Positions 7,666 through 54,613 of a stretch of 63,186 nucleotides of DNA are shown here, one piece after another. Every line of letters begins with the position of its first letter. Positions within the stretch are counted from its first letter, which is position 1. This DNA comes from a virus. The notes under the pieces were generated by a model. That model saw only the letters and a program-made list of their open reading frames with translations, did not search any database and was not told where the DNA came from. Where the stretch lies: positions 1 to 63,186 of the IMG/VR virus record IMGVR_UViG_3300032157_000008; one strand, 5' to 3'. The position numbers and the translations under genes were made by a program.

Positions 7666-7841
7666 GCCTGTCAGACGCCTGCGATGCCGTCATGAAGGCC
7701 CGGCGCGAGTACCACGCCGCTGCGCAGGAATACGAGCGCGTGCAGTACAAGCTGGACGTTGCCCGCAACCAGCTGGAGAGCGCGCAGCGTGACTTCGACA
7801 ACGCCGTGCGCACCTTCGCTGAAAAAGCCAATGTCGCATGA
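7662..7841 (+). CDS. Small coiled-coil protein, 59 aa
   Basis: ATG 7662, ATGA overlap with the membrane protein. Nearly all of it (about residues 10-55) is a charged heptad-like helix (YERVQYKLDVARNQLESAQR). Could pair with the preceding membrane protein; function unknown. Confidence 0.7.
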   Translation: MSLSDACDAVMKARREYHAAAQEYERVQYKLDVARNQLESAQRDFDNAVRTFAEKANVA

Positions 7842-8022
7842 CGACCTCGCGCGCGAACTCAAGGAAGCGCAGCGGCTGCTCCAGCGGGCGAACCTGCTGT
7901 GGGCGGCGGGTTTGTTGCGCGGGCCGATCCGTGACCCGGACGATGCCAACGAGTGGATCGAGAACGTGCGCAAGTACGTCAAACGAACCGTGCGGACGAA
8001 GCGTACCGCAGAGGGAGAGTGA
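7831..8022 (+). CDS. Small helical protein whose 3' end forms the start of the repeat array, 63 aa
   Basis: ATG 7831, 11-base overlap. A helical protein (LARELKEAQRLLQRANLLWAAG) with a basic C-terminus, KRTVRTKRTAEGE. The last codons coincide with the first repeats of the array downstream (7981 and 7999), so the six-residue periodicity KRT-VRT-KRT is imposed by the DNA repeats. The array may have started here by duplication from coding sequence, or have grown into the gene. Function unknown. Confidence 0.65.
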   Translation: MSHDDLARELKEAQRLLQRANLLWAAGLLRGPIRDPDDANEWIENVRKYVKRTVRTKRTAEGE

Positions 8023-8527
8023 GCCCAAGTTCAGAGTGAACCAATGCGTGGAGCGAGTCATTCAAGACGACAGTACCAGATGTAGCGAACGAGCCAGTGG
8101 TGACGATAGCGCCTAATGAGGAAAGCGAGTCTGTACAGGTGGAGTGAACCATGGACCTCGAACGAGCCACTAGGTCATAGCGGACCGGACAACAGGAGCG
8201 AGCCCATCAACCTGTGAGTACCAAGAACTGTAAGCGAGCCATTCAAGAGAAGCGCACCGTTGAGGATGAGCGAGACAACTTTTGGAGCGAGCCTTATAGG
8301 TGATCGAGTCAACCCCTTAGAGGGCACCATATAGAGTGAACGAGCCCTTTTTCGTGGAGAGTACCAATCGACGAGAGCGAGTCGTGTTAAGGAAGCGCAC
8401 CGTGGGTGCTGAACGAGTCTGGAGCGACGAGCGGACCACCTTATGCGAACGAGTCAACATCCATGAGAGAACCCCGTTTCACGAACGAGCCATTGTCCCA
8501 ATGAGAACCACCCAACCGGAGCGACCT
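7981..8527 (+). repeat. TIGR-like tandem interspaced guide RNA array (31 repeats, 36-bp period)
   Basis: Nine-base repeats begin at 7981, 7999, 8017, 8034, 8051, 8069, 8087, 8105, 8123, 8142, 8160, 8178, 8196, 8214, 8232, 8250, 8268, 8285, 8302, 8320, 8338, 8357, 8375, 8393, 8411, 8429, 8447, 8465, 8483, 8501 and 8519. Spacing is 17-19, mostly 18. Repeats alternate between type A (GARCGAGYC) and type B (GAGNGNACC, less conserved); only 8285 breaks the order by looking like A. Between them lie 8-10 (mostly 9) unrelated bases, such as AGTGGTGAC, CATCAACCT, AAGAACTGT, GTGTTAAGG. End repeats are degenerate. A 36-nt unit with two 9-nt spacers and two different repeats is the layout known for TIGR arrays, processed into 36-nt tigRNAs. 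No promoter is visible; transcription probably comes from the operon upstream. The transcribed strand is inferred from the gene direction. Confidence 0.85.
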
Positions 8528-8530
8528 GCA

Positions 8531-9352
8531 ATGAACGAAGACCTGCAACCTGTCATTCGTCTGAGCCGCGACATCGCGGAAGCGGCGAAGACGCTGTCCG
8601 ATCAAGAAGCGCGTTATCTCGTGGACGCGTATTACATGATGCAAGAGGATCGCAAGCGCGCGCACAACCAAGTGCGTGCTATGACCACCCCGAATCCCGA
8701 AAGCGAGCAGCAGCCGGAGCCGCACACCGTCATCCACTGGCTGGCGGAGCAGTCGTCCACGCTGGAGAAGCAGATTCAGCGCGCGCTCGACAAGTACACC
8801 GACGGCCACCCGATGGGATCGTGGATGCGCAGCGTGAAAGGCATCGGTCCCGTACTGAGCGCGGGTTTGCTGGCGCACATCGACATCAGCAAGGCACCCA
8901 CCGTGGGCCACATCTGGCGCTTCGCCGGGCTCGACCCCACCACGAAGTGGAACAAGGGCCAGAAACGGCCGTGGAACGCCACGCTGAAGACGCTGTGCTG
9001 GAAGATCGGCCAGTCGTTCATGAAGCTCTCCAATGACCCGGAGTGCTACTACGGGCGCATCTACCGTGAGCGGAAAGCCTACGAGCAGGCCCGTAATGGG
9101 ACAGCAGCGGTAGCCGAAGCTGTCGCCGCCGGGCTCGCGAAAGTCGGCAAGGACACGGAGGCGTACAAGCACCTGTCCGCTGGCAACTTGCCGCCGGGCC
9201 AGATCGACGCCCGCGCGCGCCGCTACGCGGTGAAGCTGTTCCTGTCGCACATGCACGACCAGTGGTATCGCCAGCACTTCGGCACCGCGCCGCCGCTGCC
9301 GTATCCCATCGCGCACCTTGGTCATGTCCACTTCATCGAGCCGCCGAAGTAA
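8531..9352 (+). CDS. tasA: Tas-like protein: Nop/IS110-C-terminal-like domain, no nuclease (TasA type)
   Basis: 273 residues. ATG 8531 is chosen although the frame is open back to 8336, because the upstream part is only the translated array (six-residue ER repeats); the last repeat supplies GGAG as ribosome site. Residues 1-95 are mostly helical. From about 100 to 165 comes a helix-hairpin-helix and a block like the C-terminal domain of IS110/IS116/IS902 transposases: SVKGIGPVLSAGLLAHI, then HIWRFAGLDP and a Lys/Trp-rich stretch ending GQSFMK. Helix plus this domain is also the plan of Nop5/Nop56 proteins of box C/D RNPs. No RuvC-like DEDD domain and no HNH is present, so it should bind guide RNA and DNA but not cut. 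It sits three bases after the array. An orphan transposase fragment is the alternative; the adjacent array argues against it. Confidence 0.8.
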   Translation: MNEDLQPVIRLSRDIAEAAKTLSDQEARYLVDAYYMMQEDRKRAHNQVRAMTTPNPESEQQPEPHTVIHWLAEQSSTLEKQIQRALDKYTDGHPMGSWMRSVKGIGPVLSAGLLAHIDISKAPTVGHIWRFAGLDPTTKWNKGQKRPWNATLKTLCWKIGQSFMKLSNDPECYYGRIYRERKAYEQARNGTAAVAEAVAAGLAKVGKDTEAYKHLSAGNLPPGQIDARARRYAVKLFLSHMHDQWYRQHFGTAPPLPYPIAHLGHVHFIEPPK

Positions 9353-9384: not shown

Positions 9385-10173
9385 ATGTCTGTCACTGCTT
9401 TCGTAGTAGATATAACCCCTGCTCTTGCTGAGCAGTGGTTGAAGATGAACACCAACAACCGCCTCGTGCGTGAAGCGCACGTCGTTGCTTTGTCGAAGGC
9501 CATGCTGGCTGGAGAGTGGAAGCTGAACGGCGACACCATACGCATGAACAGCAGCTTGCTGTTGGACGGCCAGCATCGGTTGATGGCTGTGGTGCGCTCC
9601 GGCGTAACAATCCAGTCCCTCGTGGTTACAGGCGTCAGCAGCGACGTTTTCGACACCATCGACAAGGGGCGCAAGCGCACCACCGGGGACACTCTGCACT
9701 TGCGCGGAGAGAAGCACGCGTCGCTTCTTGCCGGGACGGCTCGCGCGCTGATCGAACTGGAATCGTGTTCCATGGTGATTCTGGCACGCAGCGACAAGGA
9801 GATCGTTGACTGCATCAATCGGCATCCGAGCGCGCGCGACGTCATATCACACAACTGCGGCACACGCGCGTTGCGCAAGTTGAAGATATACCCGCCGTCG
9901 CTGTACATGGCGATCAGGGTATTGGCTTCTGAGAAGGACAAGACGTTGGCGGACCTGTTCTTCGCGCACATCGACGACGGCGACGTGTTCCAGCCCGACG
10001 AACCGGTAAGTATCCTGCGCGAGCGCCTGATCGAAACGCGCTCTACCTCTCGTGCACACACGCGGGAAGCAGTAGCTATCCTTACCATCAAGGCGTGGAA
10101 CGCCACGCGAGCGGGCAAGAAAGTTGGCGTTCTTCGCGCCCTTCGCGACGAATCCATTCCTGTTATCGCGTAA
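9385..10173 (+). CDS. ParB-like nuclease-fold protein, 262 aa
   Basis: ATG 9385 with GGAG eight bases upstream. Residues about 1-95 match the ParB/Sulfiredoxin-like fold: an N-terminal strand-helix, then GDTIRMNSSLLLDGQHRLMAVVRSG, where DGQHRL is the characteristic nucleotide-binding motif. The C-terminal two thirds are helical. Phages carry many such proteins, with roles in DNA binding, nicking or host shut-off that differ by case. It follows the Tas-like gene by 32 bases and may share its transcript. The precise function is not clear. Confidence 0.8.
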   Translation: MSVTAFVVDITPALAEQWLKMNTNNRLVREAHVVALSKAMLAGEWKLNGDTIRMNSSLLLDGQHRLMAVVRSGVTIQSLVVTGVSSDVFDTIDKGRKRTTGDTLHLRGEKHASLLAGTARALIELESCSMVILARSDKEIVDCINRHPSARDVISHNCGTRALRKLKIYPPSLYMAIRVLASEKDKTLADLFFAHIDDGDVFQPDEPVSILRERLIETRSTSRAHTREAVAILTIKAWNATRAGKKVGVLRALRDESIPVIA

Positions 10174-18236: not shown

Positions 18237-18526
18237 CGACGGTTGGGCATGTCCTTGCCTTTGGTCAGGCCGTGCCCACGGTTCTTCTTCTGCGAGGCCA
18301 TGCGCAGGTTCGAGTCCGCGTTGCCGCCGCCCTTCACGATGGGACGCTTGTGATCTACGTCCTTGCCGTCGCCCTTCTTTGCCAAGCCGCGCTCGATCAT
18401 CTCGCGGCGGGCGGCGTTCCGCTTCGCGCGGTTCTTCCGCTGCTCGGGCGTGGCTTCGTAGCCTGAGATACGCGCCTTGATCTGGCTCGGCGTGCGGTGC
18501 TGGCTGGGGTCGCGCTTCTCTTTCAC
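18233..18526 (-). CDS. HNH endonuclease-like protein, 97 aa
   Basis: Last gene of the leftward block. Very basic N-terminal part (RKNRAKRNAARREMIERG) followed by the HNH signature DVDHKRPIVKGGGNADSNLRMASQKKNRG (about residues 54-83), with Asp-His, the central Asn and the closing Asn in place. Proteins of this exact type are common in phages of many groups; some HNH proteins assist terminase cleavage, but this one lies far from TerL here. A stand-alone homing-type nuclease is also possible. It is the convergent partner of the primase gene. Confidence 0.85.
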   Translation of the reverse strand: MKEKRDPSQHRTPSQIKARISGYEATPEQRKNRAKRNAARREMIERGLAKKGDGKDVDHKRPIVKGGGNADSNLRMASQKKNRGHGLTKGKDMPNRR

Positions 18527-21500
18527 TGCGTAATCCTCTGTGCTTCGCGGAGGTCCACGTACTTGCCTTGCTTGTACTCGCGGGCCTTCTTGCGCTGGTA
18601 GATGCGGCGCTGCTGGAGCTTACCATTCGTGATGCGCGTTTCCACGCCGGGATGCGCGCGGTTGAAGTCTGCGATCTCGCCGCGCTTCAGGTCGTCGGCC
18701 GCGTCGTAGTCCTCGTCCTCGATCAGTCGCGCCCAGCGGTCCATCAGATTGTCACGCTTACCTTCAATGACCTGCTTGGCCGTCAGCTGCTCGCCGCGCG
18801 GGTCGTACATTTCCTGCGCGCGGCGCGGCGTGAAGCCGATCATCTGGCGGGCTACGTCCCCCGCAGTGGCGTCGTCGGCACTGAGCAGCGTGACGCCGGA
18901 CGTGTCTTCGATGCCCCGTCCGCCTTCCATCAAGCGCGCACCCTTGGAGATGTCGCTGACGCCTTTCGGCATCAGCAGTTCGCCCGCGCGCTGGTAGTTG
19001 CCGTCAGTGATGGCCGTCATGGCGTTTGCGCCCTTCACGAGCAGGCCCATCACCGGGCCAGCCAACGCCATTGCCATGTTGCCCAGCCACTCCTCGGCGT
19101 CACGCGACGGCCGCAGCGGCTGCCACAGCAGGTGGCCGAAGCCGACGCGCTGGCCCCACTCGACACCCGTCGCCGCGCTCAGCGCTCCGTCGGACATCAA
19201 GAAGCCCATCTCGTCGCCTGCCCAGTCGCCGAACATCCGGCGTAGCGCCACGTCGGGGTTGCGCAGGGAGAGCGAGAGCTTGCGCACGTCCTCGTCCTCG
19301 GAATCGTCCCCGCCCATTCCGCGCAGCGCCATTCCAGCGCCGAACGCGATAGCCCGCAGCGGCTCGGCAAAAAGCCCGCCTACCGCGCCCAGCAATGCCC
19401 CGTTGATGCCAGCGAAGTAGAGCGCCGCCTTGCGCGCCGCCTTCTTCTCTGTGGCGGTTGCCGTGCGGCTGAAGAACGCCCTGTTGAACGTGTGCAACGT
19501 GAGGCCGTACATCAGCATGCCGAAGGTCTTGTACAGAGCCACCAGCTTGAACCCGGTGAACTTGCGCAAGTGACGAGGCAGGTTCTCGACCGAGTAGTTG
19601 CCCTGCGTCTGGCGCGTCATCTTCTCGGCGTAGTTGGTGGCATCGGCCAGCGTTGCCCCCCGCTCGCGCGCGAGTTCGTAGGCAGCCGTCGCCGTCACGA
19701 GCCGGTTCATGATCTCCGTCAGCTGCGGCATGACCTTGGCGATGGACTCGATGTACTGCGCCGTGTGCCCGACGGCCCGAGCCACCATTGACTTGCTGGG
19801 GCCAGCATGCGCCGCGCGCGCAAGCTCCGTCACCATCGTGGTGTCGATGACGCCACGAGCCACCAGTTCGCGCAGCATGCTCTTGACCTGCGGCGTGGCG
19901 CTGCTGGCGGTGAGGATCGCGTCGAGGGCGTCGTCGAGCCGCACGATCTGTCCGCTTGCTGCATCGCCGAGGGCGACGAACATGCGCTTGATGGCGGGCT
20001 TGGTGAAGCGGCCGGACACCCTCGCCATCTTGCGCCCGGTGCGCACCAGCCCATGTTCGCCCGCGATGATCGGCAGGCTGACCAGCCACGGCTGCGTGGC
20101 GTTGCTGAGCGCGTGCGAGAGCGAGCCGAGGTACCACACGAACGCGAAGCGCGTCAGGCCGGACTCGAAGCGAGCCCAGCTGCCGTTGTTCTGGTGCATG
20201 GTCAGGTCCTGAAGACGCCGAGCCTTCAGTTCCTCGACGAACCGTCCGACAGAGGGCGGGTTGTCGGAGTTCTTATGGAGCGCGTTCAGACCCGCGATGG
20301 CTTCCTGTTCGTCCACGACGTGTTTCAGGTTCGCGAGCGACCACGCGCCGGAGTAGCTGCGCTCGGCGAACGTCTTCAGCAAATTGTGGAAGTCGTTCTC
20401 GCTGCCACGAACGCGCTTGCGTTCAAGCTCGGACTTGCGCAGGTTCGAGTCTGCCAACAGGCGGATATGCGCGGCGCGCACGGCGTCCATCGCGTCTGCT
20501 TTCGCTTCCCGTTCCTCCGTGCTATCCGAAGCCTTCCTGCGCCGCCCGCTCATGTAGGCGAGCAGTTCCCGGAGAGCGCCAGTCTCCACAGACGTCGAGG
20601 TCTGCTTCACCGTCGGGAACTTGCCGACGTAGTAGCCCTCTCCCTTCAGCTGCTTGAGCATCGCAGCGGCTTCTTTCTCGTCGCCCGTGAACAAGGCGTG
20701 GTCTTCGTAGTCCACGACCGCTTCGTCGCCCATCATGTGGACGCGCCCATACTTGCGGCCGGGGTTCTTCACCCGCTCGCCCTTCAGTACCTCCTGCACC
20801 AGCAACTTGCGAAATTCAGCCGAGTCCTTGGGGTCGAACGCGATCTTGAACTCGCCGTCGCGCTTGCCCTCGGCTACATACTCTCCGTGGCGCGTCAGCG
20901 GGAAATAGTCGCCCTTGACGCTGGTCTCCTCCAGAATTTCGTCTACGTGCTGCATCGTCCACTTGTTGGCGGCACCCGCGTTCTGCACGTTGGCAAATGC
21001 CTTGTCCACGATCTCCTGCCGCGCGCTCTTGTCCTTGGCGTTCATGAGCGCACCGACCAGCTGGATACGCGTGATCTCGGCCTTGTGCAGATGGTCGGAC
21101 AGACCTCCGCGCTCCAGCACGGCATGCAGCTGTGCCCGCGTCGAGGTTTCGTGCAGCGCCTTGTAGTGGTTGCGCATGGCGATGTAGACCTTCCTCGCCT
21201 GCGGCGAGAGAGCATCGAACGCCTTCTTCACGCGGTTGTAGACCTGCTGCGCTTCGGCTTCGACCCCCTTGAAGTGGTCGTGATCTGCAAAGGACTTGTC
21301 CGGGGAGATGTCATGCAGCGTGGCGTCGTTCGCCACCTTGGCAAGTGCTTCACCCTCGGCCATGGAGAGCTTGCGCGCTTCGCGCATCACGGCGTCGGCG
21401 CGCTGCTGGATCATGCGAGCATCGTGCTGCTTGGCGCGGTACACCTTGATCCAGTCGCGCACTACCTGCGTCCCGTTGCCCGTGCTGGCGACAAGGCGCG

Positions 21501-24500
21501 CTCCGTAGTCGAGCAGATAGTCGTACAGCATGTACCCCAGCGTTTTCTCGTTCACCGCTTCGCGGATACTGTCGAAGAAGCTGTTCATGCGCGCACGCGC
21601 TTCGCGCGGCGTGCTGGGCGGGCCGCGATAGCCGTAGTTCTCACGGTCGTGCGGAGTAAGCGTAGGCTTGATGGCGTCCACGCGGTCGTCGAACGCGCGC
21701 ATCTCGGCGTTGTACGCGTCGTGCCGCGCCTCGACCGTAAGCCGGTGCGCACCCGGCATCGCCATGGCATGCTCGATTGGCGAGAAGCTGGACTCCAGCT
21801 TCATCACTTCTTCAAGGACGGAGTTCTTGACGCCCTCCAGACCGAACGCTTTGCGAATCGCCTTGAGCAGCGACTTCCATACCGTTGAAGTTTCCGGCGT
21901 GCGCAGATGCTCAGGCGTTGCGATGCCGTCGAGGAAATACTGGAAGTTGATGTTCGTGAAGGCTTCCGACAGGAACTCCTCTGGCGTGCGCATGCCGTAG
22001 AACTGGTGCCAGTCAGCTTCCGGTACGCTGTTCTTTACGTGGTTGAACAGCGCGTCCACATGGCGCGCGAAGTTCTTGTCCACGGCGTAGCGCGTAACGG
22101 TGGCTGCGTGCACGATCTCGTGCGCGACCACGACGATGCTACCAAGCGTATTGGTTCCGAACTTGATGTAGTCCCGGTCTTTGAACAACGGGATGCTATT
22201 GCGCAGGTTGTGGCTGTAAGCCGCCACGTTCGGCGTCACATGCGTGATGTCGAAGCGCGTCTGGAGACCGAGCTTTGCCAGCCGCGCGAGTAGCGGACGA
22301 AGGTTGGATGGAATCCCCTTACTGGCAAGCAACGCTTCCAGCAAGTGCTGGATCGTCGGCGCGCCGCCCGTACCTTCGCGCCGCCCACGCGAGTTCGCTT
22401 CACGAACCGCTTCCCATATGAGGCGCTGTTCGCTCGTCTGCGTTACCGGCGCGCTGCGCACGCCCCAGTCTTCCTCGAAGCCACTGACGTCTTCGTCGCC
22501 CCGGCGCTCAACGCCTTCGGCGTCAGCGGCCATCTCCGCTTCCTGCTCGGCGATCAGCTTGTCGAGTTCGCTCATCTCCGCCACGGACTCAGCTGCTGCG
22601 GCGGCTTCTTCGTCGGCCATCAGCCCGGCTTCGGCCATCTCCGTTTCGTCGGCCACGGTGCCCGTGCCAGCCAGTTCCGCAGCAGCACGCTCGTTGCTCT
22701 CCTCGGCTTCTTCCGCAGCGCGTGCTTCCTCGCGCGTGGCAGCCAAGCGCTCGGCGCGCGCGGCTTCGCGCTGCGCCTGCACGGCGGGCGTGATGCGCGC
22801 GTAGAAGTTCAGCCACTCGCGCTGCGCTGCCTCCGGCCATGCACCGCCGGGGAACTCGTTCATCGCCTTCGCAAGGCGCTCCTCGGCCCCTTCACGCAGC
22901 GGCGCGTAGTTGCTCATCAGCAGGTTCGAGTCCGACACGATGTCCTCGAACGCCTTTACCTGCTCGGGCGTGCGCCGCGACTCCACGTCCTTCGCCTGCG
23001 CTTCGTCCATGTCCGCGCGGTTGGCGCGGCGGAAGCGCGTGAACAGCGCGCCGATCAGCCCCATGTCGGGGAGGTCCCCTAGCAGTTCGCCTACGCGCTT
23101 CTTGGCGGCGGCTTCTTCCTCGACAGTCGTCATGTCGCGGACGTACTTGCCAGTCTCCTCGTCCCGGACAGCCGTATCGAGTACGCCGGGCTCAACCATG
23201 TCCAGCACGAAGCGGAACGTGTTCTGGATCGGGTTCGACACCAGTTCAAGCTCGCCTTTTGCGGTGTCACCAACGGTCGTGCCCTTGACCGCTTCGCCGC
23301 CCTTCTCCTTGACCTCGGCGGCGCGGGCCTCCTTCTTGGCGTCTTCCTTGCGCTGCTCGCGCCGGACCTCGCCAATCTCGCCCTTGGTGGAAAGGCGGTG
23401 TGACCCGCGCTTGCCGACCCTCTTGCCGTTCAGCAGTACGTCGCCGGGGCGCACTTCGCCGACGCCGGGCAGCCGGTCGATCTCACCGACTACCGTCAGC
23501 TGCTCGCCACGCGACGTGCGGAACTCCAGCCATCCGTTCTTCTGCGCGATCAGCTTCAGCGCCTTGCGGATGCGCGGCACCCGGCGGTCGCCTTCCTCGT
23601 AGCTCAGCGTGTAGGCCGGCTCCTGCGGCGCAGCGGGCGCGCTGCGCTCCTTGGAGACCGCCTTAGCCCGTTCTTTCTTCGTCGGGGCTACCGCTGGAGC
23701 AGGAGCAGGTTGAGCGACAACGACAGCAGCAGGAGCAGCGCTCCCAGCAGCGCCACCAGCATCAGCAACCACCGGAGCAGCGGCCACAACCACTGGAGCA
23801 GGAGCCGCAGCCGGAGCCACAACAGGTGCCGGAGCAGGGGCAGCCTTGCGGACAGGCGCAGCCGCGCGCCCTTCGAGAACGTCGAGGACGCGTGCACGGA
23901 GTTCCTCCGCTGTCTTCTGCATGTCACCAACGCGGGCGTGCCGGCCGCGCGCGCCGGCCGCGCCGCGCCCGCCCGTGGTCTTGGCTTCCCGGTTGGCGTG
24001 CGAGATGCCTACCCGCCGGGCAATGCTGCCCAGCCGAGCCACGTCCGTGCCCCACGCCTCGTTGCCAGCGCCCCAGCCGGCAGCTGCCAGTTCCTTCAGC
24101 GCGGCGCTGGCTTCCACGATCCAGTCAGCGAGCGGCTTGGCCGCCGGCTTCTTGCGCCACTTGCTAGGCTTCTTCGACTTGGCCGTCTTGACGTTGGTGG
24201 CAGCGGCATAGCCCTCGTCCACCAGCCCGCGCAGCGCGCGCTCCAGCTGGGCTTCCTCCGGGGTCTTCGCCACGACAGCCTCACCGGGCGAGGCTGCGGC
24301 CTCTTGCTGAGCGACTGCTGTGGGGACGTTCTGGGGACTGACGACTTGCCCATGCACGACAGCCCCGTCCGGGGTGTGGCGCTCGACGGCCACCGCCTGA
24401 TCGAGCGGGACCTGTGGCTTCGGCTCGACGTAGCCCAGAATCTTCGCGCGGGCCTCCTCACCACGGCCCAGCCGGTCGTACTCGTTCGCCACGTCGCGGC

Positions 24501-26568
24501 TGAGCGTGAACAGGACGCCCATCTGCTGGCCGGTCGGGTCGGGATGGTCGTTGACGGCAATGACCCGGCCCCGAAAGCGGTTCTGGATGTCCTGCATCTG
24601 CTGCGGGGTCGGGTTGGCGATCCAGATGGCCTTGCGCGGGTTGCCGGGGTTGGCAAGCTCCTCGACCTGCGCCTCGATGTCCTGCGGGGCTTCCGTGGTC
24701 GTCGGCGGAGCCGGGGTGCCGGGCGGCGGCTCGTCCCCGGTCGATTGCGCTACCGGGCCACCGAACTCGCCGCCTTGGGCTCCAGCCGCCAGCAGGGCAT
24801 CCAGTTCAGCGCCAGTGGGGTCCGCAGCCGCTCCCTGCGGGCCTACAGCCGCCGCAGGGGCACCGGGGGCACTCGGAGCCGCACCGGGCGCTGCCGGGGC
24901 TCCAGCGCCGCCTACGGGCGGCACAGTGACGTTTTTGAGGCGCTCGTTGAGCCCAGCGAGGGCGTTGTCAACGACGTGCAGGCGCATCGTCGCGACCTTG
25001 ACCGCGTTCTCGTCCCCGGCAGCGGTAGCTGCCTCCAACTCCTTCGTTGCCCGCGCGCGAGTACGGTTGGCCGCGTCGATCTCCCCGACGAGTCGCTTGT
25101 ACTGCTCGACCGGTGGCGTCTGGATAGCCGGTGCCGGGGCGGGCGCAGCGCCGGGGGTCGCCGCCGCGCCCCCCACCGCCGTTGGTGCTGCGCCGCCTCC
25201 GGCTCCCGGTGCAGCAGTGGCAGCCTGAGCCGCCGCCTGCTGCTGTTGTGCGTCGAGGACCTGTTGAGCGCGCTCACGCGCCGTCGCATTGGCCTGCGTG
25301 ACGATCTCGGGTACGGACGGTGTCGCCCCCGGCGGAGCGTTGGCCTTGACCGCATCGACGACGGCCGGGTCCACTTCCGGCGTTGTCGGGGATGGCTCCC
25401 CCGGCTTAACCGTCGGTTTTTCGCCCTTCGCGAACGGTGCAGTCGCGATCTCGGCCGGGGCCATCGCGACCTCGCCGAAAAGCTCTCCAGCCATCGCCCC
25501 ACCGCTGGTGATCTTGCCGGACTCGGCCAGCTGTCCAGCCCCTTCCCCAGCAGCACCCATCGCGCCCTGCCCGAGGACTTCCGCAATGTGCGCGAGCGCC
25601 TTCTTCGCCAGCCCGGACTTCTCCGCCATCTTGACCAGCCGCCCGGCCATGCCGAGCGAGAGGGTGTCGATGACCGCTACCGGGACGGCGTGCAGCGCCT
25701 TGCTCGACCGAAGCTTTTCGTACAGGTTCGGGTCCGCGTAGAACTTGGCGATGTCCTCCGGGTTGGTAACGTCCAGCCCCGACGACGCCATGGCCTCCTG
25801 CATGCCCGCCTGATAGTCCATGGCGAACGAGCCGGTGAAGCCGCCTGCGCCTGCGCCAATGACAGTGCCTATCGGACCTCCAATCGCGGAGCCGCCTGCG
25901 CCGCCTGCCAGTGCGCCGACCAGCGGCGCGGCGGACATGGGGAGGGACTCAGCAGCCGTGGCGACGGCGAGGCGGGGGTTCTTCGCGTACAGCTTCACGG
26001 CGTCCCAGAAGTCGGCCTTGTCGATCTCCTGCATGACCGCCTTGTCTTCGTCGGTCAACTGCGTCGTGGCGCGGATGTCCCGCTGGGCCTGTGCGTACTC
26101 CTCGTAGTCGCCCGTCATCTGGTCCGGCATCGCCATGACGGACTCGTAGCCGCGCTTCGCAGGCGCGCCGACGTAGCGTGTCAGCCAGCCAGCGTCTTCG
26201 TCGCCGGCTCCTTCGACAGGAATCGTCTTGTCGAGCCACGCGCGCAACTCGTCGTTGCTCATGCTCGACGTATCGACGTCTTCTTCGTCGCCGGCTTCCT
26301 CCTGCTCCTGCGCGCCGACAGCTGCTTCGTGCATGCCTGCCAGCTGCTCGGGAGGCGGCGGAGGAGCCATGAGGCGCGGCATCTGTGGCTGGTTGGCAGC
26401 GGCAATGGCTTCGATGTCCGCCACATGCTGCTGCATGATCTGGTCGGCGCGAGCGCGCGCACGATCCATGAGCGCCTGCGCAGGCATGGCGGATGCGCCG
26501 ACGCGCGGCTGCTGGCCGGGCGGCGGGGGAATGGCCGAGCGAACGTCGTCTTCGACGAGAGGGTACAT
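18523..26568 (-). CDS. Giant virion protein with HExxH metallopeptidase motif, 2681 aa
   Basis: The largest gene. N-terminus Pro-rich; residues about 205-400 carry Gly/Ala-rich hydrophobic stretches that could insert in membrane; about 400-1000 is low-complexity Ala/Pro/Glu linker; about 1455-1600 contains a zinc metallopeptidase signature, VVAHEIVHAATV (near 1480), with a downstream Glu in EEFLSEAF. The last 900 residues are helical with further hydrophobic stretches (ALYFAGINGALLGAVGG near 2390). The layout fits the large internal proteins ejected with DNA by podoviruses, possibly with a peptidase acting during entry. I see no lytic transglycosylase motif and no RNA polymerase motif. Encoded last in the virion operon, next to two other internal virion candidates. 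Confidence 0.8.
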   Translation of the reverse strand: MYPLVEDDVRSAIPPPPGQQPRVGASAMPAQALMDRARARADQIMQQHVADIEAIAAANQPQMPRLMAPPPPPEQLAGMHEAAVGAQEQEEAGDEEDVDTSSMSNDELRAWLDKTIPVEGAGDEDAGWLTRYVGAPAKRGYESVMAMPDQMTGDYEEYAQAQRDIRATTQLTDEDKAVMQEIDKADFWDAVKLYAKNPRLAVATAAESLPMSAAPLVGALAGGAGGSAIGGPIGTVIGAGAGGFTGSFAMDYQAGMQEAMASSGLDVTNPEDIAKFYADPNLYEKLRSSKALHAVPVAVIDTLSLGMAGRLVKMAEKSGLAKKALAHIAEVLGQGAMGAAGEGAGQLAESGKITSGGAMAGELFGEVAMAPAEIATAPFAKGEKPTVKPGEPSPTTPEVDPAVVDAVKANAPPGATPSVPEIVTQANATARERAQQVLDAQQQQAAAQAATAAPGAGGGAAPTAVGGAAATPGAAPAPAPAIQTPPVEQYKRLVGEIDAANRTRARATKELEAATAAGDENAVKVATMRLHVVDNALAGLNERLKNVTVPPVGGAGAPAAPGAAPSAPGAPAAAVGPQGAAADPTGAELDALLAAGAQGGEFGGPVAQSTGDEPPPGTPAPPTTTEAPQDIEAQVEELANPGNPRKAIWIANPTPQQMQDIQNRFRGRVIAVNDHPDPTGQQMGVLFTLSRDVANEYDRLGRGEEARAKILGYVEPKPQVPLDQAVAVERHTPDGAVVHGQVVSPQNVPTAVAQQEAAASPGEAVVAKTPEEAQLERALRGLVDEGYAAATNVKTAKSKKPSKWRKKPAAKPLADWIVEASAALKELAAAGWGAGNEAWGTDVARLGSIARRVGISHANREAKTTGGRGAAGARGRHARVGDMQKTAEELRARVLDVLEGRAAAPVRKAAPAPAPVVAPAAAPAPVVVAAAPVVADAGGAAGSAAPAAVVVAQPAPAPAVAPTKKERAKAVSKERSAPAAPQEPAYTLSYEEGDRRVPRIRKALKLIAQKNGWLEFRTSRGEQLTVVGEIDRLPGVGEVRPGDVLLNGKRVGKRGSHRLSTKGEIGEVRREQRKEDAKKEARAAEVKEKGGEAVKGTTVGDTAKGELELVSNPIQNTFRFVLDMVEPGVLDTAVRDEETGKYVRDMTTVEEEAAAKKRVGELLGDLPDMGLIGALFTRFRRANRADMDEAQAKDVESRRTPEQVKAFEDIVSDSNLLMSNYAPLREGAEERLAKAMNEFPGGAWPEAAQREWLNFYARITPAVQAQREAARAERLAATREEARAAEEAEESNERAAAELAGTGTVADETEMAEAGLMADEEAAAAAESVAEMSELDKLIAEQEAEMAADAEGVERRGDEDVSGFEEDWGVRSAPVTQTSEQRLIWEAVREANSRGRREGTGGAPTIQHLLEALLASKGIPSNLRPLLARLAKLGLQTRFDITHVTPNVAAYSHNLRNSIPLFKDRDYIKFGTNTLGSIVVVAHEIVHAATVTRYAVDKNFARHVDALFNHVKNSVPEADWHQFYGMRTPEEFLSEAFTNINFQYFLDGIATPEHLRTPETSTVWKSLLKAIRKAFGLEGVKNSVLEEVMKLESSFSPIEHAMAMPGAHRLTVEARHDAYNAEMRAFDDRVDAIKPTLTPHDRENYGYRGPPSTPREARARMNSFFDSIREAVNEKTLGYMLYDYLLDYGARLVASTGNGTQVVRDWIKVYRAKQHDARMIQQRADAVMREARKLSMAEGEALAKVANDATLHDISPDKSFADHDHFKGVEAEAQQVYNRVKKAFDALSPQARKVYIAMRNHYKALHETSTRAQLHAVLERGGLSDHLHKAEITRIQLVGALMNAKDKSARQEIVDKAFANVQNAGAANKWTMQHVDEILEETSVKGDYFPLTRHGEYVAEGKRDGEFKIAFDPKDSAEFRKLLVQEVLKGERVKNPGRKYGRVHMMGDEAVVDYEDHALFTGDEKEAAAMLKQLKGEGYYVGKFPTVKQTSTSVETGALRELLAYMSGRRRKASDSTEEREAKADAMDAVRAAHIRLLADSNLRKSELERKRVRGSENDFHNLLKTFAERSYSGAWSLANLKHVVDEQEAIAGLNALHKNSDNPPSVGRFVEELKARRLQDLTMHQNNGSWARFESGLTRFAFVWYLGSLSHALSNATQPWLVSLPIIAGEHGLVRTGRKMARVSGRFTKPAIKRMFVALGDAASGQIVRLDDALDAILTASSATPQVKSMLRELVARGVIDTTMVTELARAAHAGPSKSMVARAVGHTAQYIESIAKVMPQLTEIMNRLVTATAAYELARERGATLADATNYAEKMTRQTQGNYSVENLPRHLRKFTGFKLVALYKTFGMLMYGLTLHTFNRAFFSRTATATEKKAARKAALYFAGINGALLGAVGGLFAEPLRAIAFGAGMALRGMGGDDSEDEDVRKLSLSLRNPDVALRRMFGDWAGDEMGFLMSDGALSAATGVEWGQRVGFGHLLWQPLRPSRDAEEWLGNMAMALAGPVMGLLVKGANAMTAITDGNYQRAGELLMPKGVSDISKGARLMEGGRGIEDTSGVTLLSADDATAGDVARQMIGFTPRRAQEMYDPRGEQLTAKQVIEGKRDNLMDRWARLIEDEDYDAADDLKRGEIADFNRAHPGVETRITNGKLQQRRIYQRKKAREYKQGKYVDLREAQRITQ

Positions 26569-53935: not shown

Positions 53936-54613
53936 ATGAGCAAGCACAATCCCGTTGCCGCGAACGAGGCGGCCGTCGCAACGCTGCTGAGCCGCAGCGT
54001 TGCGGACGTATCCATCACGACGCTCGACCAGCGCATCGCCGGATCGCACCAGCGTTTCGCCGCCGAGTGGGACGACCTGCACGACATCGCGGTCATCGCA
54101 CTGGCGCACGCCGCCACGCACGGGGACTACACCCGGATGCAGGCGCTGTGGTCCGGGCACCGAGCGCCCGTCCGTAAGGCGCTGGCTGGCTGGCTGGGCG
54201 AGTGCAGCCCGCTGATCGTGTCGCAGGGCAAGCTCGCGAAGAGCCGCCTGCCGGATGCGCCCGACTACAGCGTGGAAGTGGCGCAGGCGCTGAACCCGGC
54301 GGACTGGAAGCAATCGCCCGCTGCGGCGGAACGCTTCCAGCTGGAACAGCTGGCGAAGTACCTCGCGAAGAAGGCGGACGGGCAAACCACGGAAGAGCGC
54401 ACCGCGAAGGTGTGCGGGAAGCTGGCCCGCGAAGTGCGCCGCCTGATCGACGACACGGAAGAGGCGCAGGCGCTCGAAGAGGCGCAGGCGCTCGAAGAGG
54501 CGCAGGCGCTCGAAGAGGCGGGCGCGGTCAACGCCAAGCGCATCGCGGCGGACATGGCCGCGAACCCGGAGCGCACCAGCCACGACGTGAAGGCGGGCGC
54601 GGCGCTGGCCTGA
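53936..54613 (+). CDS. Helical early protein with six-residue tandem repeat, 225 aa
   Basis: ATG 53936 is chosen because AGGAGG lies eight bases upstream; ATG 53930 in frame is too close to that site. Mostly helical, Ala/Leu/Arg-rich. Near the C-terminus an 18-bp unit is repeated three times plus part (54458-54522), encoding EEAQAL three times, a probable recent slippage expansion. Function unknown. Confidence 0.75.
   Translation: MSKHNPVAANEAAVATLLSRSVADVSITTLDQRIAGSHQRFAAEWDDLHDIAVIALAHAATHGDYTRMQALWSGHRAPVRKALAGWLGECSPLIVSQGKLAKSRLPDAPDYSVEVAQALNPADWKQSPAAAERFQLEQLAKYLAKKADGQTTEERTAKVCGKLAREVRRLIDDTEEAQALEEAQALEEAQALEEAGAVNAKRIAADMAANPERTSHDVKAGAALA

Follow-up and report, generated by a model that had tools for sequence, protein, structure and literature searches.

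What is a long run of short, worn repeats doing directly upstream of a transposase-like gene in a phage genome? We address this question for positions 7981-8528 of the IMG/VR virus record IMGVR_UViG_3300032157_000008, analysed over its whole length of 63,186 nucleotides (hereafter, the window). Here 31 repeats of two kinds precede a gene whose product resembles the Tas proteins of tandem interspaced guide RNA (TIGR) systems. The locus very probably belongs to a TIGR-TasA system carried by a tailed phage, its array making paired-guide RNAs for TasA. TIGR-Tas systems were described in 2025, with their natural targets, the origin of their spacers and the role of the nuclease-less TasA named as open questions (PMC12045711).

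Array anatomy and the adjoining tasA gene

We described the array with a chain model in which two repeat profiles of 10 columns each alternate and the spacers between them are free. On the + strand it places 31 repeats at 7981-8528: 16 edge repeats (GARCGAGYC) in strict alternation with 15 loop repeats (GAGNGNACC), separated by spacers of about 9 nt. The chain score reaches 241 at the array and at most 11 in shuffles of the same region; in the rest of the window and on the reverse strand it stays at or below about 10, with no second TIGR-like array on either strand. Successive repeats are 17-19 bp apart. Of 29 two-repeat periods, 19 equal 36 and all lie within 34-37; the units number 15. Repeat columns carry up to 1.86 bits of information, spacer columns -0.1 to 0.2 bits, zero within error. 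A sequence-only reading of this DNA had reported 31 repeats with a 36-bp period at these coordinates, in near-strict A/B alternation and interspersed with unrelated segments of about 9 nt. Count, period and coordinates are reproduced by the chain model, in which the alternation is strict and the segments are columns without information. That reading mentions neither the Tas-type gene adjoining the array nor the edge covariation described below.

The tenth repeat base, an A in relatives, is nearly free in the window. The window array is thus fairly described as "9-nt repeats, 9-nt spacers", whereas those of relatives read 10 + 8. The array escaped Tandem Repeats Finder, because its copies are interspersed and degenerate, and no RNA family of Rfam matched it.

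Both ends of the array are irregular. The last edge repeat (8519..8528, +) is truncated at its 3' side: GAGCG is kept, whereas AGYCA is lost and unrelated bases stand in its place. Besides the chain model, this assignment rests on truncated terminal edges in relatives, where a terminal half-edge is recognisable in 86 arrays and the other half is missing in 66 of them. At the 5' end the edge repeat is very degenerate. Here a small reading frame without family match (7834-8022, 62 residues) runs with its 3' end into the first two repeats, which are degenerate.

The array lies within an operon-like gene run, and tasA (8531..9352, +) starts 2 bp past the last repeat, on the same strand. Its product of 273 residues is predicted to be a solo Nop domain with a coiled coil. 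It matches Transposase_20, its sole Pfam match, and phrog_4285. By sequence, the closest solved structures are TasR (9mty, E 1.1e-14) and TasH (21kl, E 1.3e-11), followed by IS621 (E 0.001). An AlphaFold2 model built from an alignment of eight homologues (predicted local distance difference test score, pLDDT, 78.9) aligns with TasH at Z 19.5 over 222 residues, with TasR at Z 17.5 over 191 residues and with IS621 at Z 13.6; Nop5 and Prp31 match weakly (Z about 7). These fold matches begin past the nuclease domains, at residue 65 of TasH, 112 of TasR and 125 of IS621. As the protein matches TasR and TasH in both sequence and modelled fold and has no nuclease domain, we assign it to TasA, the solo-Nop type of Tas protein as defined by Faure et al. 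2025 (PMC12045711). The gene is intact and the family's invariant residues are kept.

The truncated last edge (GGAGCG, window 8519-8531) occupies the place expected for the Shine-Dalgarno sequence of tasA, an arrangement also found in one relative, L009 (GGAGTGAAAATG). The GGAG of this repeat may thus serve tasA as a Shine-Dalgarno sequence as well; a cut in the last edge would then strip the ribosome site from the tasA mRNA, a possible negative feedback.

Dual-repeat TIGR arrays are built of 36-nt units, most often 5-15 of them, with box C/D-type pairs and truncated edge repeats at both ends (PMC12045711). The window array likewise has two alternating repeats, a 36-nt unit period, 15 units and a truncated last edge repeat.

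Base pairing between neighbouring edge repeats

Suppose that the RNA begins with the 3' half of an edge repeat and ends with the 5' half of the following one. Position 8 of the first edge repeat is then predicted to pair with position 3 of the second, and position 7 with position 4. Every one of the 15 window units has Watson-Crick bases at both of these cross-edge pairs. The 8-3 pair takes the forms C-G, U-A and A-U, and the 7-4 pair includes one compensatory A-U. Permutation gives on average 6.7 paired units for 8-3, against the 15 of 15 observed (p 5e-5); positions 8 and 3 within one edge repeat pair in only 5 of 15. The same holds for the relatives described below, in which the 8-3 pair is formed in 1369 of 1504 units (1175 +/- 11 under within-locus shuffling) and no pairing excess is found inside single edge repeats.

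An unbiased covariation scan of 1246 units of exactly 36 nt returns the same helix. Among 630 column pairs, the two cross-edge pairs rank first (E8-e3, z 20.7; E7-e4, z 19.3), followed by a pair within the loop repeat (L3-L8, z 8.8) and then by values of 4.5 and less. In the 11 ungapped window units the edge helix is 100% paired, with both-side changes at both pairs, and it beats every slid version of itself in cells paired.

Base-pair covariation across edges also explains why the edge repeat looks degenerate at its R and Y positions. Only an RNA unit cut edge-to-edge predicts such covariation. In the register inferred from it, a unit opens with the 3' half of an edge repeat, continues through spacer A, the loop repeat and spacer B, and closes with the 5' half of the following edge. 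Cross-edge covariation alone thus suffices to read the functional RNA unit and its strand, without recourse to targets. The cross-edge and loop pairs correspond to pairs in the TasR-tigRNA structure, from which cross-edge pairing is already known; its reading from native arrays, like the contiguity result given below, was not found in the literature searched, the coverage of which was incomplete.

In this register, the chain model and cross-edge pairing delimit 15 predicted tigRNA units on the + strand. Units of 36 nt are predicted at 7986..8021 (unit 1), 8056..8091 (3), 8092..8127 (4), 8165..8200 (6), 8201..8236 (7), 8237..8272 (8), 8307..8342 (10), 8380..8415 (12), 8416..8451 (13), 8452..8487 (14) and 8488..8523 (15). 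Units 2 (8022..8055) and 9 (8273..8306) would be of 34 nt, the latter with the rare A-U edge pair, and units 5 (8128..8164) and 11 (8343..8379) of 37 nt. Units 3 and 8 have the same spacer A and different spacers B (ATTCAAGAC / ATTCAAGAG).

Relatives, guide pairs and genomic surroundings

Relatives were gathered from IMG/VR: 8 loci came from one protein query, 80 were fetched out of 412 candidates from an alignment (A1), and another two alignments, each headed by distant members, gave 160 more loci that overlap the first set, about 230 in all, with redundancy. Alternating arrays adjoin tasA in 79 of the 80 first-set loci and in 151 of 153 loci of the second, overlapping set. The same is true of L010 (67% identity), a locus of Ca. 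Propionivibrio aalborgensis, which was the only one of 399 genomes of its order in which TasA was found. Edge repeats lie on the tasA strand in 2310 of 2338 matches (140 non-redundant loci). The repeats common to the group are GAGCGAGCCA or GAACGAGTCA for the edge and GAGAGNACCA for the loop.

While the repeats stay, the spacers change: 2432 of 3619 are distinct in about 80 first-set loci. Close relatives have blocks of units in common, with whole units gained or lost and now and then one spacer changed. The sequence-only reading had proposed to ask whether relatives keep the variable segments as well as the repeats; they do not, which speaks against an iteron array. The end of the repeat varies jointly in its two types: both end in CCG instead of CCA in nine loci (L100, L216, L219, L230, L237, L254, L255, L258 and L309), and both in CCC instead of CCA in L002. 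Such a joint change of the box C end is as expected for a symmetric dimer.

In one phage with two arrays (L005, 2671-2987 and 3820-4608), blocks of units have been copied between them. Among the units of the L005 arrays, of L010 (4750-4957) and of the window (3 and 8) there are also near-identical ones, one base apart, and pairs with a common spacer A and differing spacers B. Copied blocks, one-base variants and the shared spacer A hint at array growth by duplication and half-unit exchange. Three TasA relatives (L090, L214 and L217) had no detectable dual-repeat array in their fetched flanks and are candidates for another array type. By their record numbers, L074 and L096 (IMG records 2522125054 and 2900685891) are presumably isolate genomes, and a cultured host of the TasA group may exist. 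The window neighbours of tasA are not retained next to it in relatives, so that tasA and its array seem to travel between phages as a cassette.

In vitro, the two spacers pair with opposite strands of a single 18-bp site (Faure et al. 2025, PMC12045711). From the reported 8-nt 3' overhangs we derive the order 5'-A-rc(B)-3', where rc(B) is the reverse complement of spacer B. If native guide pairs stem from contiguous DNA, the base that ends A should lie next to the complement of the base that ends B, and we scored this junction for natural dinucleotide bias. Among 256 combinations of position and orientation, the junction scores highest in 970 non-redundant units (z 2.5, p 0.0044). A held-out set of 687 units, scored with a matrix set beforehand, gives z 2.46 (p 0.0065). 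The pooled value is z 3.3 (p 0.0002), compared with 3.5-5.5 for true neighbours inside spacers and at most 1.8 for the other three geometries. Under models of phage DNA, mostly non-array, z is 3.2 with 1-base and 3.1 with 3-base contexts, and weaker, 1.9, with 2-base contexts. Dinucleotide ratios at the junction correlate with those inside spacers (r 0.77; 0.91 leaving out homodinucleotides).

We grade this result as moderate evidence for contiguity, because in the pooled scan one unrelated position pair (B2, A4) nearly equals the junction z; mutual information among the other spacer positions shows no coherent pattern. The signal could also reflect a structural preference at the two positions beside the repeats. 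On balance, we lean slightly towards native guide pairs having been read from contiguous DNA, with A abutting the reverse complement of B in the source or target and whole units turning over. The junction signature in native arrays, replicated and modest, has the order and strand found in vitro by Faure et al. If the contiguity holds, phage TasA arrays would be records of, or weapons against, real double-stranded DNA sites, acting without cleavage, and junction statistics could be used for finding natural targets.

The surroundings of the locus are those of a phage. The 63-kb contig encodes a family-A DNA polymerase, an SNF2-type helicase, a PD-(D/E)XK exonuclease, a primase-like protein, a portal-like protein and a terminase, the last nearest to that of 61-kb Rhizobium phages (39% identity). 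In a phage collection the window has no DNA relatives and only distant protein matches, the TasH phage CGphi29 among them. The gene after tasA (9385-10173) belongs to the widespread phrog_5931, with matches in 84 phage records that reach 36% identity, and a ParB/Srx-like motif, LLDGQHRL, can be seen by eye in its product. In a described subset of TasA loci a parB-like gene, tasParB, forms an operon with tasA (PMC12045711). We considered 9385-10173 as tasParB and found no support for it: the gene matches no Pfam family or solved structure and is not kept beside tasA in relatives. Elsewhere in the window are a gene for a 2681-residue protein with a DarB-like antirestriction stretch (18523-26568, -) and a perfect 18-bp tandem repeat (GAAGAGGCGCAGGCGCTC, 3.5 copies, 54458-54520), probably coding.

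Proposed action, rival explanations and known systems

Processing, dimer formation and tandem-spacer targeting are drawn here by analogy with Faure et al. 2025 (PMC12045711). Array and tasA are most likely co-transcribed on the + strand. Predicted cuts inside each edge repeat, between GARCG and AGYCN, would yield about 15 tigRNAs of 34-37 nt. A TasA dimer would grip each RNA by its edge and loop repeats through box C/D-like pairs, and spacers A and B would then address opposite strands of a contiguous site of about 18 bp (PMC12045711). As it has no nuclease domain, TasA probably acts by binding: it would unwind and bend its target without cutting, and so block transcription, replication or another element. 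DNA binding and bending have been proposed as the action of TasA (PMC12045711). Its object is probably the DNA of other elements, as own-genome matches are absent, and it most likely serves to interfere with competing phages or other elements.

Several results weigh against a working locus of this kind. The window repeats are unusually worn, with 78% identity to their consensus, the 9th lowest of 221 arrays (median 91%). Neither a sigma-70-like promoter upstream of the array nor a rho-independent terminator between array and tasA was found; in described systems such a terminator follows the array, and the 36-nt tigRNAs are bound by the Tas protein (PMC12045711). For the terminator, one may offer that the array is probably read through, as it lies directly upstream of tasA. 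The paired-spacer search suggested in the sequence-only reading gave no targets in the phage itself, in TIGR phages or in a relative's host. In the A+rc(B) geometry, with up to 2 mismatches, the window's own genome has 0 matches (shuffle mean 0.2). Searching 1195 units in four geometries against 1.3 Mb of TIGR phages gave 3 exact matches, with 2.8 expected. Two window units were sought in IMG/VR as exact 19-mers: one had no match, and the other matched one AT-rich phage (two near-identical contigs) that is unrelated to the window, consistent with chance. The own genomes of 6-7 relatives show no excess over shuffled pairings at 2 mismatches, and four patterns covering 5 of the 6 units of the Ca. 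Propionivibrio array (the sixth left out) found nothing in its own host genome.

The worn repeats raise the question whether this is a former TIGR array, decaying and disused beside a working or dead tasA. The overlap of the first two repeats with the small upstream reading frame fits such a history, and part of the array could indeed be decaying. Yet the edge helices are intact in every unit, compensatory U-A and A-U forms included, and tasA has lost none of the family's invariant residues; we regard disuse of the whole array as quite unlikely. A working TIGR-TasA that regulates the phage's own genes instead of other DNA would suit a phage-encoded effector without nuclease, but the absence of own-genome matches, here and in excess of shuffling in relatives, makes this unlikely. 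Very unlikely, in our estimate, is an iteron-like or other protein-binding DNA array (origin, partition or regulatory) placed by chance in front of a transposase-like gene. The phage genome, the short repeats and their regular 18-bp spacing are all compatible with it, as are the parB-like genes in operon with some TasA. Nevertheless, its repeats are of two strictly alternating types, fixed in strand relative to tasA and present with nearly every relative of that gene. Moreover, the covariation is directional, on one strand, and joins neighbouring edges instead of the halves of one; a DNA-binding array offers no reason for complementarity of neighbouring repeats. We give next to no credence to an IS110-type element, an RNA-guided recombinase whose bridge RNA or end sequences would be the repeats. 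Pfam and PHROGs do name the family transposase, and the IS621 fold is similar; still, TasR and TasH match better, the N-terminal DEDD nuclease domain is absent (Pfam scan, and an alignment that starts only past it), and IS110 has one bridge RNA, not an array of units.

The TIGR-like guide array of the sequence-only reading is thus supported: most of the dual-repeat features that a sequence can reveal are present, including a same-strand Nop-type Tas gene and covarying box C/D-type pairs. The locus is a further example of the already known TIGR-TasA kind, within a large TasA group: IMG/VR contributes about 400 relatives, and a named bacterium one more. The covariation reading and the junction signature make the natural role of this group testable.

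Closest to it are dual-repeat TIGR-TasA systems such as FpTIGR of Flavonifractor plautii (PMC12045711), which share the solo-Nop Tas, alternating 9-10-nt repeats, 8-9-nt spacers, the 36-nt unit, the truncated terminal edge repeat and the box C/D-type pairs. In contrast to these, the window array lies upstream only and has unusually worn repeats and no terminator seen after it. TIGR-TasH (Salicola phage CGphi29) and TIGR-TasR (9vzx, 21kl, 9mty) share the Nop fold with it, aligning over 191-230 residues with Z 17.5-19.5, and have the same tandem-spacer RNA anatomy, whereas the window TasA, at 20-27% identity, has no HNH or RuvC domain. The IS110 and IS621 bridge-RNA recombinases contain a homologous RNA-binding Nop-like domain, joined to the DEDD domain that TasA does not have and served by a single bridge RNA. 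As in CRISPR arrays, conserved repeats alternate with variable spacers and units turn over between relatives; unlike CRISPR, with its one repeat of 25-36 nt and spacers of similar size, the window has two repeats of 9-10 nt and a split 9+9-nt guide, and no Cas or adaptation genes were recognised among the neighbours tested. Finally, the archaeal and eukaryotic box C/D small nucleolar ribonucleoproteins (Nop5, Prp31) share the Nop domain and guides flanked by C/D-type pairs; the window locus differs from them in being a phage array with DNA as its probable target and no methyltransferase partner.
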